DNA of 64,000 nt from Gordius sp. MW1. Taxonomy: Eukaryota; Nematomorpha; Gordioida; Gordea; Gordiidae. Each line of letters starts with the position of its first letter. Position 1 is the first letter of the stretch. The DNA lies in contig OZ038529.1 of NCBI GenBank assembly GCA_964036665.1, positions 23,198,060 through 23,262,059 of the forward strand. Reading direction: 5' to 3'. The notes below the pieces were generated by a model. That model was not told the DNA's origin. It did no database searches and saw nothing but the letters and a program-made list of their open reading frames with translations. Of this stretch, positions 37,770-45,367 are shown in pieces. The position numbers and the translations under genes are program-made.

Positions 37770-40286
37770 TCACGTGACTATCTCCGCTTCGTCGTCGTAA
37801 AGGTACCTATACTTGCCCCATCCCATTCTCCGTTTAGTGACCACATCCTTTTCCCAACTACTTTCGCACTCCCCGTGGAGCCAATCGAAGTTTGGATAAA
37901 CGGGTCTGGGTTCGGGTGGGGTAAAAGGTGATTTTCTAGATGCTAGTTTCGTCAAAATTACCTCTTTTGCCAAATCTTTGGGATCCTTATGGGATTCTAG
38001 ATATCTAAAAAAACATATAAACCCTTTAAGTTATTGGGCATTATCAATTTTTAACTTGGTGCAATTTTAGAAATATATAAATATATAATTTATTGGTAGA
38101 TCTAATTAAATAGCAAATGCATCAAGTAACATTAGATAAGTTTATATAACTATGATAAAATTATATGATAAAATAGGAGCAAGGCAACTTCAAATAACTA
38201 CTTTTCATAAATCCTTTAAAAACCAAACAATTTTTAACAGGAATTAAGGTTTTTTGTATCTATAAGAAAGACAACTGAGGGGACCAACAAAGCTGTCTGA
38301 ACTAAAGTAGGAGAGGGCATAAAATGTTTACTTTAATCTGTTTTTACAAAGAAAAATCTTTCATAAATTATTAAAAATGTCACAATTTCCATTACTACTC
38401 TATATTTAGATTAGATTTGGATAATATTTAATACTTTAATATATATCAAATTTTGCAAAAAGGTAAAATTACCCCCTACAATTTATAGAATATGTAGCCT
38501 AGGAAAAATACGTAAATTATACAAAAATTAAGGTAAAAAATTTTTTGATAGAGCATATGTCAATGTCAGAATTAAGGTGACAAAATAACTAATACCTAGT
38601 ATCTAATGATCATTGAAATTAAAGATTTTTTTATACATGTATAAAATTTAAATGAGGCAGGCTAAGATAGTGAGCAGGGTAAACATCAAACTATTGCTAA
38701 AAATAAATGACTGATTGCCAAGTGCATGCATCCACTTACGAATCAAATTTCTTGTGCTGAGGGTATGTCTTCTGAATAGCTTTATGTCTAGGAGGCATTT
38801 CTATTTTAAATAACGGTTCCCGAATCTCTGTATAAAGAATTTTAGTTTGATTTTTGCAACTTATAAAACTTTGAAATAATATAGTAATTTGGAGGTTAAG
38901 TAATTCTAAAATTTTATGTATAAAAATACTAAATTGCCCATGTTTTGATTAATTTAAGTACTATCTAATAATATATTATCGGTTTAGACAAAAAATTATG
39001 ATTTGACATAAAATAAAGTATGGTAATCAATTAACTTTAAAAATTAAAATATGACAAACTCAAGGTATTGTGAAAGAAATGTCTAAGAGATGGATCCCAA
39101 ACAGCTTGAAAAAAGTTCATGCCTGCAGGAGTTATTAGTTTCTGATATTTTCTATAAAATTCCAACGTAGAAAATGTGCGTTCTGATAATGAAATGCTAT
39201 AATCATATGTTAATATAATACATTTATTCAGCTTTAATAAAGAATTATGTAAAATTAAAACAAATAATTTTGCATGGGAAAATGTGTAAATTCTATCAAG
39301 AAATAATCTAATATCATATATACCATGGCTGTTGCCTTTTTTCATTATTAAAATCAATTTTTTGAGTTTGTTGATATAAAACATATACCATTCGATGATA
39401 ACCTGATCCATAAAATGGAAATGGTTGCATGTAATCACATATTAATTCTCCCTCAGAAATATTATTGCCAGGAATGTTTGCACTAAATATATTTGTAACA
39501 TCAATATATTGTAATAATAGATAATAAAAATAAAATATAAGCTATTTTTATTACATGAACCAATGTAGATATTCTGAATTTTCTTGATTAATATGAGAAT
39601 CTAAACTTGTTAAAAGAAGGCTCCATAAAGAGTTTGGCTCAGATTCAAATTCCACATTGGGACTAGATACAGCCTACCACTAAATTCAAAAGAATTATAA
39701 TTTTTAAGTACTTCATTAGCTTGTAATATATTTCCCCTATAAACTGGTATTAGATCTTCTTCATTTTCAGAAAGCTTTTTTGTGTAAAATATTTTCATAT
39801 TTTTGACAGGGTAAAAATAGGCCATATCAAATAGATCTTTATTTATGTTATAATGATCAGCTAATTGTAGCATATTCTCAGGTCCAATTGTATCAAGCCA
39901 ATCCTTTTCCACTTTCTCTAGGTCAATTTTGACTATTATTAATTTAAAAAAAATTATATTTAATAAATTACGTTTAAGATATCTTGCATCTTCCTCAAGT
40001 TTTAAATCTTGTTTATTCTTACGCATGACTTTTAGCCTCTCTTTATACTTTCCAAGGGACACTTGAGTCTCATATGGTAACCCAATATTAACCCTATCAT
40101 ACAATTCATCATGAGTTTCTAGACCTAAAAAATTAACGCATTATAAAAACAATTACTTTTTAATTTTTCTTTTAGAGAAGGAATTTCAAATGGATGCAAT
40201 TGAAGAAGATGCTTGGGAGGTTGGCAATAGCCTCTTAAGCTTATCTCAAATTTAAAAGCCAAATTTAATAAAAATCTTTTAGACAT
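37770..40286 (-). CDS. MRPL38: Mitochondrial ribosomal protein mL38, complete
   Basis: Eight exons (high to low): 40157-40286, 39972-40124, 39712-39932, 39555-39673, 39324-39482, 39060-39196, 38740-38827, 37770-38004; total 1,242 nt, 413 residues, near the family size. The start MSKRFLLNLAFKFEIS looks like a mitochondrial presequence. Family matches: RVNIGLPYE, KVEKDWLDTIGPENMLQLADHY, DLFDMAYFYP, then the PEBP-like fold (SLWSLLLTSLDSH, YLHWF-IANIPGNNI, PFPFYGSGYHRMVYVLYQQ), and SERTFSTLEFYRKYQKLITPAGMNFFQ. The protein belongs to the large mitoribosomal subunit. Intron 1 is 32 nt; introns 2 and 3 are 39 and 38 nt. Intron 2 is a multiple of three without a stop, so an unspliced form would still read through. 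The last exon ends YLYDDEAEIVT. Confidence 0.95.
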
Positions 40287-40421
40287 TATGCGTATCGATG
40301 CATTCGACCAAAGTTCAACTGACCAAATGTCTATGAATGCCTATGAATGCCTATGAATGTCTATGAATATTTATTGACCAATCAGAGCGTGGCTGTTCAA
40401 TATCACTTCTTTTAATTTCAA
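40287..40421. promoter_or_regulatory. Putative bidirectional promoter, mL38 / FLYWCH gene
   Basis: Only 135 bp lie between the two divergent start codons. Four head-to-tail decamers of the form YCTATGAATR (about 40330-40369), spaced one helical turn, are followed by a CCAAT box in ATTGACCAATCAGAG (about 40374-40388). A second ACCAAA-type motif is at 40308-40326. That both genes use it is inferred from position. Confidence 0.5.
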
Positions 40422-43400
40422 ATGCCAGTTAAATTTTGTATATCCCAGAAAAGACGACCATATTTAGTTGAGGGAAAATAAGAATACATTAAAGTGAATG
40501 TAGGGAAGTGTTCACAAGTATATTACAGGTGTAGAACACGAAAATGCTCCTCAAGAAATGTTTACAGAGACGAAAACTTTACTATAACAAGAAATCATGA
40601 TGATATTCCCCACACAAGTAATGTTTATGATTATTATATCTTATCTTCATAATAGCTTATACGAACTATGGACCTTTTACTCAGGTTTCACAACCTCTAC
40701 AAACATTGGACATCAGCAAAGTTACTAGTAAGCTAATTTTAAAATATATCCACATGTTTTAGATTTAATTAAAAAAGTGAGAGCAATCAATAATCAAAGT
40801 GCAATATCATATTCATCCATCCCAACCACCACTAACTGTAAGTTCATTTAGTCATAAACCAGAATTTTACACTTGTCTTATTTGAGGGCTTCTGCTGCAG
40901 AAAGTATACGTGCAATATCATATTCATCCATCCCAACCACCACCAACTGTAACTTCATTTAGTCATAAACCAGAATCTTACACTTGTCTTAGATTTGAGG
41001 GCGTCTGCTGCAGAAAGTATACGTGCAATATCATATTCATCCATCCCAACCACCACCAACTGTAAGTTCATTTAGTCATAACCCAGAATTTTACACTTGT
41101 CTTAGATTTGAGGGCGTCTGCTGCAGAAAGTATACGTGCAATATCATATTCATCCATCCCAACCACCACCAACTGTAAGTTCATTTAGTCATAAACCAGA
41201 ATTTTACACTTGTCTTAGATTCGATGGCTTCTGATGCAGAAAGTATACAAAGTGCAATATCGTATTCATCCTTCCGAACCACCACCAACCTTATTTTAGC
41301 TTCGATGGCTTCTGCTGCAGAAAGTATACGTGCAATATCATATTCATCCATCCCAACCACCACCAACTGTAAGTTCATTTAGTCATAAACCAGAATTTTA
41401 CACTTGTCTTAGATTTGAGGGCGTCTGCTGCAGAAAGTATACGTGCAATATCATATTCATCCATCCCAACCACCACCAACTGTAAGTTCATTTAGTCATA
41501 AACCATAATTTTACACTTGTCTTAGATTCGATGGCTTCTGATGCAGAAAGTATACAAAGTGCAATATCGTATTCATCCTTCCGAACCACCACCAACCTTA
41601 TTTTAGCTTCGATGGCTTCTGCTGCAGAAAGTATACGTGCAATATCATATTCATCCATCCCAACCACCATCAACTGTAAGTTCATTTAGTCATAAACCAG
41701 AATTTTACACTTGTCTTAGATTTGAGGGCTTCTGCTGCAGAAAGTATACGTGCAATATCATATTCATCCATCCCAACCACCACCAACTGTAAGTTCATTT
41801 AGTCATAAACCATAATTTAACACTTGTCTTAGATTTGAGGGCTTCTGCTGCAAAAAGTATACGTGCAATATCATTCCCAACCACCACTAACTGTAAGTTC
41901 ATTTTGTCATACAGAATTTTACACTTGTCTTAGATTTGAGGGCGTCTGCTGCAGAAAGTATACGTGCAATATCATATTCATCCATCCCAACCACCACCAA
42001 CTGTAAGTTCATTTAGTCATAAACCAGAATTTTACACTTGTCTTAGATTTGAGGGCTTCTGCTGCAGAAAGTATACGTGCAATATTCATTTAGTCATAAA
42101 CCAGAATTTTACACTTGTCTTAGATTCGAGAGCTTCTGCTGCAGAAAGTATACGTGCAATATCATATTCATCCATCCCAACCACCACCAACTGTAAGTTC
42201 ATTTAGTCATAAACCAGAATTTTACACTTGTCTTAGATTTGAGGGCGTCTGCTGCAGAAAGTATACGTGCAATATCATATTCATCCATCCCAGCCACCAC
42301 CAACTGTAAGTTCATTTAGTCATAAACCAGAATTTTACACTTGTCTTAGATTCGATGGCTTCTGATGCAGAAAGTATACAAAGTGCAATATCGTATTCAT
42401 CCTTCCGAACCACCACCAACCTTATTTTAGATTCGATGGCTTATGCTGCAGAAAGTATACGTGCAATATCATATTCATCCATCCCAACCACCACCAACTG
42501 TAAGTTTATTTAGTCATAAACCAGAATTTTACACTTGTCTTAGATTTGAGGGCTTCTGCTGCAGAAAGTATACGTGCAATATCATATTCATCCATCCCAA
42601 CCACCACCAACTGTAAGTTCATTTAGTCATAAACCAGAATTTTACACTTGTCTTAGATTCGATGGCTTCTGATGCAGAAAGTATACAAAGTGCAATATCG
42701 TATTCATCCTTCCGAACCACCACCAACCTTATTTTAGATTCGATGGCTTCTGATGCAGAAAGTGTACAAAGTGCAATATCGTATTCATCCATCCCAACCA
42801 CCACCAACTGTAAGCTCATTTAGTCATAAACCAGAATTTTACACTTGTCTTAGATTCGATGGCTTCTGATGCAGAAAGTATACAAAGTGCAATATCGTAT
42901 TCATCCTTCCGAACCACCACCAACCTTATTTTAGATTCGATGGCTTCTGATGCAGAAAGTGTACAAAGTGCAATATCGTATTCATCCATCCCAACCACCA
43001 CCAACTGTAAGTTCATTTATTCATAAACCAGTTGATTATATTATCTTCTTGTTCTAGATAATATAGAATTCATTCCATCCCATAATGGCTCTGTGTTATA
43101 TTATGATGGTTTCTTATACAACAAGCAGACAACAACTCCATCTGCCACCTATTATAGGTGTAGGAATAGAAGTTGTTCAGGAAAAGCTAAAATCACGACT
43201 TTTTCACTGTTACAAGGACATAGTCACGAGCCTCCCAGAGGTGACTATGAGTACTTCATAACACTTCGGGACTTAAAGGCTGCTGTTCTGGCAGAGCCTA
43301 AAAAAAATTTGAGGAATATATATAATACAGTGATTTTTCAAAGATTGCAAGAGGTACCTGACCTTGTCCTGTACCCGCAGGCGACCCCCACATTTGCCTC

Positions 43401-43590
43401 AATTAAACATACAATGCTACGGGTTAATCCCAAAACCAAGAATGATCCAGAAAACAATAGGGACATTCTCCTAGAACCAGAACATTGTTTTACCAAGAAA
43501 GGTGAAAGATTCTTGCTGTGGAACGGGGACAATCGCCTCTTCATTTTTGGAACACTAACACCGGCCCAAAATATTAAATTTGCCTGTTAG
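40422..43590 (+). CDS. FLYWCH zinc-finger gene with amplified exon array (one in-frame stop)
   Basis: Exons: 40422-40622 (FLYWCH 1: EYIKV..YYRCRTRKCSSR..ITRNHDD), 40685-40727, 40763-40837, then the array exons 40993-41061, 41106-41174, 41219-41368, 41413-41481, 41526-41675, 41720-41788, 41833-41892, 41934-42002, 42124-42192, 42237-42305, 42350-42499, 42544-42612, 42657-42809, 42854-43006, and 43058-43590 (FLYWCH 2: LYYDGFLYNKQ..YYRCRNRSC..GHSHEP). Sum 2,220 nt, in frame throughout except TAA at codon 20. The last exon continues into a MULE-transposase-type leader (PTFASIKHTMLRVNP, RLFIFGT) and stops where the catalytic domain would start. Probably a domesticated or decaying transposon-derived DNA-binding gene. 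The donor of exon 1 is weak (GTTTAT; GTAATG two bases earlier breaks the frame). The early stop may mean a pseudogene, a read error or another start. Confidence 0.7.
40763..43057 (+). repeat. Tandem array of exon-intron units (113-bp basic period)
   Basis: Basic unit: a 69-nt exon encoding YLRASAAESIRAIS then YSSIPTTTN, followed by a 44-nt intron that starts GTAAGTTCATTTAGTC and ends TTACACTTGTCTTAG. About 22 coding repeats are present. Five exons (150 or 153 nt) are doubles in which the intron has been replaced by CTTATTTTAG read as coding. One exon (41833-41892) lost 9 nt. Two units cannot splice normally: the one at 40882-40948 lost its acceptor AG, and the one at 42047-42123 lost its donor through a deletion. 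Confidence 0.93.
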
Positions 43591-44162
43591 GCCCGAAATT
43601 TTGCGATCTAAAATTCTTTCAACCACTATTAAAAAATAAGCATTAAATTAATGGCATATTGAATAAAACAAATATAAAAATATTTTATTATCTCGGACAA
43701 AATCTAATTTCCTATATTATATAAAAGTCGGATGATGTTACCAAATAAAACTTTTGATCTTTAATTTTAATCCTAATGGGTCAAAAAAACGTAGTATTTG
43801 GTCTTTCTAAAATATTAGGTCCGAATTTCTTTAAAATATTGTTATCACTGGCAAAACCGCTCTAGGTTAAAATATTTTAACATATTAATTGCTAAGCCAT
43901 TTCGGTACAAACATGTTTTAGAACGTTTACAAATCTTATAAAAGCAAAATATTATTTAGTTGCAGCCGATGTCCTTGAGAATATTTATTTTTTAAGTTTA
44001 AAGTATATATACTTTATAAATACTCGTGCCCGCCCGAAAATAAAAATTTAAAGCAGTTGCCCGGCCCGGGCAATCTGATCTCTGATTAACACCCTCAAAT
44101 ATTTCTAATGTCTAACATTATTTAAGCTTTAGTAATTAAACTTTCACTTTTATAACTACATC
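43591..44162. other. Non-coding stretch with possible MITE family 3 debris
   Basis: CCCGCCCGAAAAT and GCCCGGCCCGGGCAA near 44028-44072 recall family 3 interiors, but ends were not found. No gene seen. Confidence 0.35.
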
Positions 44163-44890
44163 TATTCTATTAAAAGTATACTATCAGGAATAAACATAAA
44201 ATATCTACACATAGTCAAGTTAATTTTATATAGTCATCACTAACATTCCCAACATAAAAGATTTTTTTATCATAGTCCTTTTAATTTTACATTTATATTT
44301 ATACTTGATTCAATGATTATATTAAAATTATATTATCAGGAATAAACATAAAATATCACATAGTCAAGTTTGTTTTTTTATAGTCATCAATAACATTCCC
44401 AACATAAAAGATTTTTTATCATAGTCCTTTTAATTTTACATTTATACTTGATCATCAATGATTATATTAAAAGTATATTATCAGGAATTAACATAAAATA
44501 TCTACACATAGTCAAGTTTATTTTATATATTCATCACTAACATTCCTAACATAAAGATTCTTTATCATATTCCTTTCTATTTTACATTTACACTTGATCA
44601 TCAATGATTCTATTAAAAGTATATTATCAGGAATAAACATAAATATCTACACATAGTCAAGTTTATTTTATATAGTTATCACTAACATTACAAAAGAATT
44701 TTTTCTCATATTCCTTTTAATTTTACATTTACACTTGATCATCAATGATTTTATTAAAAGTAATTATCAGGATTAAACATCTACGCATATTCAAGTTTGT
44801 TTTATATAGTCATCACTAACATTCCTAACAAAAAGATTCTTTATCATATTCCTTTTTTTTACATTTACATTTATACTTGATCATCAATGA
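44163..44890. repeat. AT-rich minisatellite, about five copies of a ~150-bp unit
   Basis: Recurring blocks in fixed order: ATTAAAAGTATATTATCAGG, AATAAACATAAAATATC, CACATAGTCAAGTTTATTTT, CATCACTAACATTCC, TTTTAATTTTACATTTA, TTGATCATCAATGAT. Units begin near 44166, 44318, 44461, 44605 and 44750. Stops in all frames. Confidence 0.9.
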
Positions 44891-45367
44891 TAGAATTTAC
44901 ATTATATTCGTCTTACCTATTCATTTAATGTATAAAATGTATGATTATAAAGTGCGTATAAACATTCATGCATTTCCGTAGACATTTATATTGGTTTTTT
45001 GCTTTTTGGACAATTGCAACTGAATCGACATTATGCTACCTGACGCTGCGATTGTATCAAAATGATATAAATTAATAAAATTGTAAACGAAATTATTTAG
45101 AAGAAATATATATCTAGTGATCATTAATGCGTAATACATTTACAAAAAAACCTATAAGTCGCGAGAGATATGTTCTCACAAAACATTTAAATGGCATTGG
45201 CATAGATATTACAGGTGAGGCCGTACCCGGCCTAATTTTTAAATCTTTTGTAAACAATGTATTTGTAATTTTTTTATTATCTACCGAAACCTGATGATTA
45301 AATAATATCCAAACTAATAAATTAGCTTGATAACATAAATAATAAAAAGTATTTTTTGCCTAGTCCA
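44891..45367. other. Non-coding stretch, nothing recognised
   Basis: AT-rich, between the minisatellite and the RTE copy. Confidence 0.5.

Follow-up and report, generated by a model that had tools for sequence, protein, structure and literature searches.

The duplication of exons is thought to require symmetric introns, and in the kringle IV-2 VNTR of LPA the reading frame is kept across units. Among described systems, the Phantom-type Mutator-like elements (MULEs) come nearest in their parts to the locus reported here; in design, the nearest are the LPA kringle IV-2 VNTR and the W1/W2 repeats of EBNA-LP. The likeness to Phantom and other Mutator-like elements, as the sections drawn on here describe them, lies in a FLYWCH zinc finger joined to a MULE domain, target-site duplications of ~9 bp, MITE-like derivatives and, in some relatives, tandem repeats (PMC3169594, PMC6446971). 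Tm1 of Meloidogyne encodes a FLYWCH-MULE protein and has tandem repeats in its terminal inverted repeats (PMC3169594), and MULEs elsewhere carry minisatellites, at the C-terminus in Rehavkus and after the ORF in an aphid Phantom (PMC6446971). The locus differs from these in its tandem exon-plus-intron linker units, which the passages on Tm1, Rehavkus and the aphid Phantom do not describe (PMC3169594, PMC6446971).

The LPA kringle IV-2 VNTR is likewise a coding array with exons and introns in each unit, present in 1 to ~40 units, but the account of it gives 5.6-kb units, long introns, a folded domain and a host gene (PMC11462820), whereas the units here are 86-151 nt, form a transposase linker and come in several unrelated versions. 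In EBNA-LP of Epstein-Barr virus, W1/W2 exon pairs in a tandem DNA repeat encode 66-residue repeats in variable number, so that exons of variable copy number again lie in a tandem DNA repeat; as described, this is a single viral gene with two exons per 66-residue unit (PMC5834210), in contrast to the one very small exon per unit and the many mobile elements found here. In the openly licensed literature, as far as its accessible passages go, no transposase with exon-plus-intron arrays was found described.

The window, that is, the whole stretch of DNA analysed, comprises 64,000 nt of Gordius sp. MW1 (contig OZ038529.1, positions 23,198,060 to 23,262,059). At 40763-43057 a short coding repeat occurs in 22 copies, the leader exon included, as delimited from the sequence, by TRF and by wrap-around alignment. 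The array and its surroundings are made up of the following features, in window coordinates:

40282..40291, plus strand: 5' target-site duplication GACATTATGC, 10 bp, an exact match at the element end
40292..45026, plus strand: internally deleted copy, 4.7 kb, of a MULE DNA transposon resembling Phantom (ends common to other copies; dispersed matches; MULE domain in copy L003)
40422..40617, plus strand: first FLYWCH exon, with an in-frame TAA at 40479-40481 (gene model; the homologous exon of copy L004 matches PF04500 below the cut-off)
40728-40762, plus strand: putative 35-nt intron 5' of the leader exon
40763..40837, plus strand: leader exon, 75 nt (sequence and wrap-around alignment)
40838..43006, plus strand: the 21 other copies of the repeat, for the most part made up of a 69-nt exon with a 44-nt putative intron (TRF, alignment, motif count)
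40838..40879, plus strand: putative leader intron, 42 nt, acceptor AG lost (wrap-around alignment)
42047..42123, plus strand: unit with a 36-nt deletion, donor removed and in-frame TAG left (sequence and alignment)
43007..43057, plus strand: putative 51-nt intron separating the array from the second FLYWCH domain, FLYWCH2 (gene model)
43058..43560, plus strand: FLYWCH2 exon, L003-like up to the deletion junction 43560/43561 (PF04500, 23.5 bits; comparison with L003 by eye)
43561..44090, plus strand: fragment of a nested, GCCCG-rich element with approximate end; the deletion that took out the MULE domain made the join (by eye)
44164..44891, plus strand: 145-bp subterminal tandem repeat of the transposon (TRF; also in copies L002, L005 and L039)
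45027..45036, plus strand: 3' target-site duplication GACATTATGC, 10 bp, an exact match at the element end

The commonest unit is 113 nt long and consists of a 69-nt exon and a 44-nt predicted intron that starts with GTAAGT and ends with TTAG. The intron is 44 nt long in 13 copies (the donor being GTAACT in one) and 41 nt in 1; in 5 copies it is missing after a frame-preserving loss of 35 nt that leaves CTTATTTTAG behind, and the reading frame continues from each into the copy that follows, so that exons of 150 and 153 nt result. Of the remaining copies, one has lost its donor, the leader has lost its acceptor AG (at ~40879, the next donor being the GTAACT at 40949), and the last is followed by the different 51-nt intron. 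Exon sizes are thus 60 (one exon), 69, 75 (the leader), 150 and 153 nt, with phase 1 wherever both splice sites are intact. The preliminary description had counted about 22 copies, most with their own 44-nt intron, had listed the same exon sizes in phase 1-1 and had placed the units between two FLYWCH domains; all of this was confirmed, the exon sizes and phase for junctions with both sites, and the unit as an exon with its own intron, symmetric in phase 1, between two FLYWCH-like domains. Its statement that exon indels are only of 3 or 9 nt did not survive, as the 36-nt deletion at ~42085 takes an exon end together with the donor and leaves the in-frame TAG. The introns of the array would be removed by splicing in vivo, judging from their sites and phase.

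The array sits in a copy of a Mutator-like DNA transposon, not in a host gene. The 10-bp end sequence has only two exact matches in the window, both exactly at the element ends, where 0.08 would be expected; 9-bp repeats were seen by eye at the corresponding ends of copies L006 and L008, and no target-site duplication was seen by eye at the ends of L003. With the array as DNA query, the source genome (212 Mb, 12 contigs) gave 23 rows on 7 chromosome-size contigs, and the region upstream of the array gave at least 65 rows (40 of 332 candidates scored), some copies accounting for several rows in these counts. Copy L003, at 12.516 Mb on contig 4, shares the FLYWCH2 exon and continues from it into a MULE domain (PF10551, E 4.8e-7, 30.6 bits, cut-off 27.6). 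The window FLYWCH2 scores 23.5 bits against PF04500, just under the Pfam cut-off of 23.6, and the L004 exon homologous to the first FLYWCH exon scores 21.7 bits, also under it; FLYWCH2 is over the cut-off in families B (26.9 bits), F (31.7 bits) and N (40.7 bits). In its FLYWCH and MULE make-up the element resembles Phantom, the criteria used being a PF10551 domain, FLYWCH before the transposase and a target-site duplication of 8-11 bp. Its ends are defined and show no clear inverted repeat by eye; for Phantom, the relevant part of a MULE survey gives terminal inverted repeats of 18-613 bp or none (PMC6446971).

It had been proposed that the array belongs to a host gene. An array between two FLYWCH-like domains would be explained by a host FLYWCH gene whose repeat linker is under selection, and a host ORF does lie close to the element: an mL38-like (mitochondrial ribosomal protein) ORF at window 39610-40140 on the minus strand (E 3.6e-9 to a solved chain), with the transposon inserted ~140 bp from its upstream end. 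This explanation is barely credible against the 10-bp target-site duplication, the dispersed copies, the stop in the first FLYWCH exon and a MULE domain that is lost here and present in a sister copy, and on these grounds it was rejected.

The window copy looks dead, with no sign of a working protein still made from it, because it has a stop at codon 20, no transposase domain and damaged splice junctions. The stop is the TAA at 40479-40481, codon 20 from the ATG at 40422, where L002 and L004 read TAT. By eye, the copy departs from the L003 pattern at 43560/43561 and enters the nested element, whose sequence sits 3' of the transposase in L039 and L003 (also by eye); the MULE domain is therefore gone. 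L003 is open through the leader exon, two 69-nt exons, one 153-nt exon and FLYWCH2 to the transposase stop. Its gene model runs to 588 residues; a short intron in the MULE part probably accounts for a few of them. All four array introns of the model are in phase 1. The first FLYWCH exon of L003 is interrupted by an insertion, and no copy with every part intact was found among the window-family copies compared. In the family B copy, at 19.066 Mb on contig C3, the gene model is open across the array and poor in the MULE part.

Several observations were made on the sister copies and related transposases. The MITE-like derivatives L006, L007, L057, L059, L062 and L065 have a common deletion junction, give or take a few bases, which lies inside a repeat unit, with CATCCATCCCAA joined to the transposase 3' end; since they share it, one deleted form seems to have spread. 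An altered genetic code was considered for the in-frame TAA codons in many transposase matches and rejected for L045, L046 and L054, which were read closely, because there the codons lie within a short gap in the MULE exon that resembles an intron (36 nt in L045). A search for genomic retrocopies of the spliced array gave matches at chance level (4 vs 5 in a reversed-pattern control), and no relatives were confirmed in IMG/VR.

Arrays of the same kind were found at other FLYWCH/MULE loci. The genome has at least 146 FLYWCH matches (150 of 455 candidates scored) and at least 140 transposase matches (138 of 784 candidates scored), and TRF was applied to 53 loci and 11 further regions. The exon/intron test asks for an intron of 30-55 nt with GT..AG ends and a donor agreeing with GTAAGT in at least 4 of 6 positions, and for an exon part with a length divisible by three and an open phase-1 frame. 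From the TRF rows, 19 linker units and 14 controls were hand-picked, the 48-nt L030 array being among those set aside. The linker unit types pass in sense in 17 of 19 cases and in antisense in 0 of 19, where shuffles predict 2.2 (P 2e-15), and the 14 control arrays give one pass on each strand; arrays J2 and M2 fail. Clustering by DNA similarity yields 12 clusters, of which 10 pass when a failing member is counted against its cluster (P 9e-9).

Because the units had been chosen by hand and the thresholds fixed only after inspection, the test was repeated, within the 53 loci of known gene strand, on all TRF arrays with a period of 60-200; the 11 MITE-type loci L056-L066 and the L030 array (period 48) fall outside this set. 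Upstream of a FLYWCH or MULE match, 26 of 34 arrays pass in sense and 1 of 34 in antisense, with thresholds fixed after many of these arrays had been viewed and with the 34 not independent, several coming from one family or locus. The lone antisense pass is the inverted half of a palindrome in family E, one of the 26 sense passes, the AT-rich L036, is probably due to chance, and 8 of the 34 arrays fail. Downstream, the figures are 0 of 12 in sense and 1 of 12 in antisense. Passing arrays occur in 23 of the 53 loci and in none of the other 30, many of which are other FLYWCH families. Among 11 regions chosen by transposase position, 9 have tandem arrays of period >80; one of these, the L074 array, fails the test. 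Of the remaining two regions, L073 lies upstream of the array in L046, and the MULE locus L080 has no array in the 4 kb upstream.

The putative exon/intron sizes (in nt) are 69/44 in family A, 66/35 in B, 81/42 in C, 78/32 in D, 78/47 in E, 81/34 in F, 63/38 in G, 114/37 in H, 57/36 in J, 51/38 in K, 78/54 in M and 102/34 in N, so that introns in the tested arrays measure 32-54 nt and whole units 86-151 nt; in D, F and N a second exon/intron split also fits. In family B the array has a FLYWCH domain on either side, with scores of 26.6 and 26.9 bits that both exceed the cut-off, and in family N it lies between a weak first domain (17.0 bits) and a second of 40.7 bits. Related FLYWCH/MULE loci carry, in front of FLYWCH2, units that by their predicted splice sites and phase are of one design and are unrelated in sequence, in the sense that their DNA similarity does not exceed that of shuffles, a very old common origin of some being possible. 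Because this design recurs in arrays of unrelated sequence, the pattern of the window array is more than chance. In L030 (1160-1409), a 48-nt (16-codon) intronless tandem repeat stands beside a FLYWCH domain; similar growth may have taken place there with no intron involved.

To compare exons and introns, 11 array groups were pooled, families J, K, M and N being left out of the substitution counts and the leader row and last row of the window array being dropped from the rate and dN/dS counts. Changes were found in 102 of 861 exon columns and 57 of 412 intron columns (p 0.32), dN/dS between units is ~1.05 in the pooled groups, and stops are not depleted (2 seen vs 2.9 expected). Within introns, fewer changes were seen at the splice dinucleotides (1 of 44 columns) than at the other positions (56 of 368; one-sided p 0.009, units whose site went by deletion being omitted). 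In a hand tally that leaves out indels spanning an exon-intron border, the length is divisible by three for 8 of the 10 indel types within exons and for 2 of the 9 within introns; both frame-breaking exon indels, of 1 and 4 nt, are in family E. It thus looks as if the frame and the splice sites are constrained and the residues are not. The preliminary description had argued for selection on the protein rather than a plain satellite and had named, as an observation that would speak against it, equal divergence of exon and intron parts together with frame-breaking indels in other individuals. Equal divergence, one half of that observation, is what was found; selection on the protein sequence finds no support in it, in the dN/dS of ~1 or in the undepleted stops, and what holds of the argument is the apparent constraint on frame and splice sites. 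Equal divergence together with dN/dS of ~1 fits tolerance better than sequence selection.

The same equality is what would be expected of a plain satellite or minisatellite that resembles exons and introns by accident. Such an origin would also agree with the 145-bp tandem array of the same element, whose L044 copy fails the exon/intron test on both strands, and with the derivatives that share a deletion junction and, without most of the transposase, keep 0 to 3 further units. It is nevertheless improbable in view of the strand and position bias of the passing arrays (26 of 34 sense vs 1 of 34 antisense upstream, none in sense among 12 downstream), of L003, which is open across its whole array, and of the young units of family F, in which the sole indel type is 1 nt and lies inside the intron.

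The number of units varies among related elements while the frame holds, in agreement with the frame-safe gain and loss of units first proposed. Six copies of family F, taken from at least 11 places with its FLYWCH score among the matches listed, have 8, 4, 9, 4, at least 13 and 8 units and are 97.5-99.9% identical (first alignment listed per pair); a family F copy lies at 2.369 Mb on contig C5. Six copies of family D, taken from at least 24 such places among the matches listed for that family, differ by whole 110-nt units, by 27-nt and 9-nt exon steps and by one intron base; gaps of 1 and 9 nt beside the 27-nt exon repeat, being artefacts of alignment, were left uncounted. In the window-family copies compared, a fuzzy motif count puts 0 to 21 units behind the leader. 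In family B, a different linker exon is also duplicated, into two 72-nt copies, and in L058 and L064 a 183-nt stretch with two linker exons is duplicated; different exons have therefore founded repeats.

A length-variable, perhaps alternatively spliced tether might be useful to the transposase and tuned by selection, through the spacing of binding sites or through inactive shorter forms. Eleven primary sequence clusters, that of the window family among them, have upstream arrays of this design, which would be in keeping with such a use, as would the two FLYWCH domains around the array in families B and N and the changes of unit number among near-identical copies. The residues look unconstrained, though, L080 does without an array in its upstream 4 kb, and unit number differs widely in young copies, which suggests that length matters little; a selected use is considered unlikely.

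The array is probably best explained by minisatellite growth in a tolerant linker of a Phantom-type MULE transposase. The linker before the second FLYWCH domain would consist of very small phase-1 exons between short introns, and because such exons are symmetric, a tandem duplication of one exon plus one intron length would add an exon without harm to the frame, whatever its breakpoints. Replication or repair would generate such duplications in these elements in a minisatellite-like manner, and the linker would tolerate them because it is, by eye, a tether rich in Ser, Thr, Pro and Asn. Duplications that break the frame or splicing would vanish with the copies bearing them, so that arrays would grow, shrink and turn over with splice sites and an exon multiple of three kept. 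The window copy would later have lost its MULE domain and acquired the stop in the first FLYWCH exon, and would now be decaying.

Beyond minisatellite growth in a tolerant linker, a bolder reading may be entertained, and it is held with considerable doubt. This group of transposases might evolve by recurrent amplification of units of a tiny exon and a tiny intron, starting from different founding exons, and so possess a frame-safe, possibly alternatively spliced length dial before a DNA-binding domain, which could affect the choice of binding sites or yield self-regulating isoforms. The dial would be regarded as built in because different linker exons repeatedly founded new arrays.

Further observations concern the genome at large. 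In L077 (1-3775), two family E arrays of ~11 and ~18 units face in opposite directions ~60 bp apart, in a palindrome centred in the repeat. In one young FLYWCH family (30.7 bits), 14 of 24 places among the matches listed form 7 head-to-head inverted pairs, 4.4-17.7 kb apart, each minus then plus, and none within 20 kb is oppositely arranged among the matches listed; these pairs suggest palindromic, foldback-like elements. TTAGGG telomere repeats stand at four contig starts. COX1, with TGA read as sense, is on the small contig C12, which is probably mitochondrial, and further COX1-like matches on C1, C3, C4, C5 and C8 bring the rows, C12 included, to 24.

Within a single genome, the principle of symmetric introns appears here repeatedly, at the same position of one type of gene and in sequences that are unrelated. 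The young copies, with their differing numbers of units, provide a natural series on the birth of exon-plus-intron arrays. This series also bears on the splicing of many identical tiny introns, and on whether a transposase tolerates such an array or profits from it.
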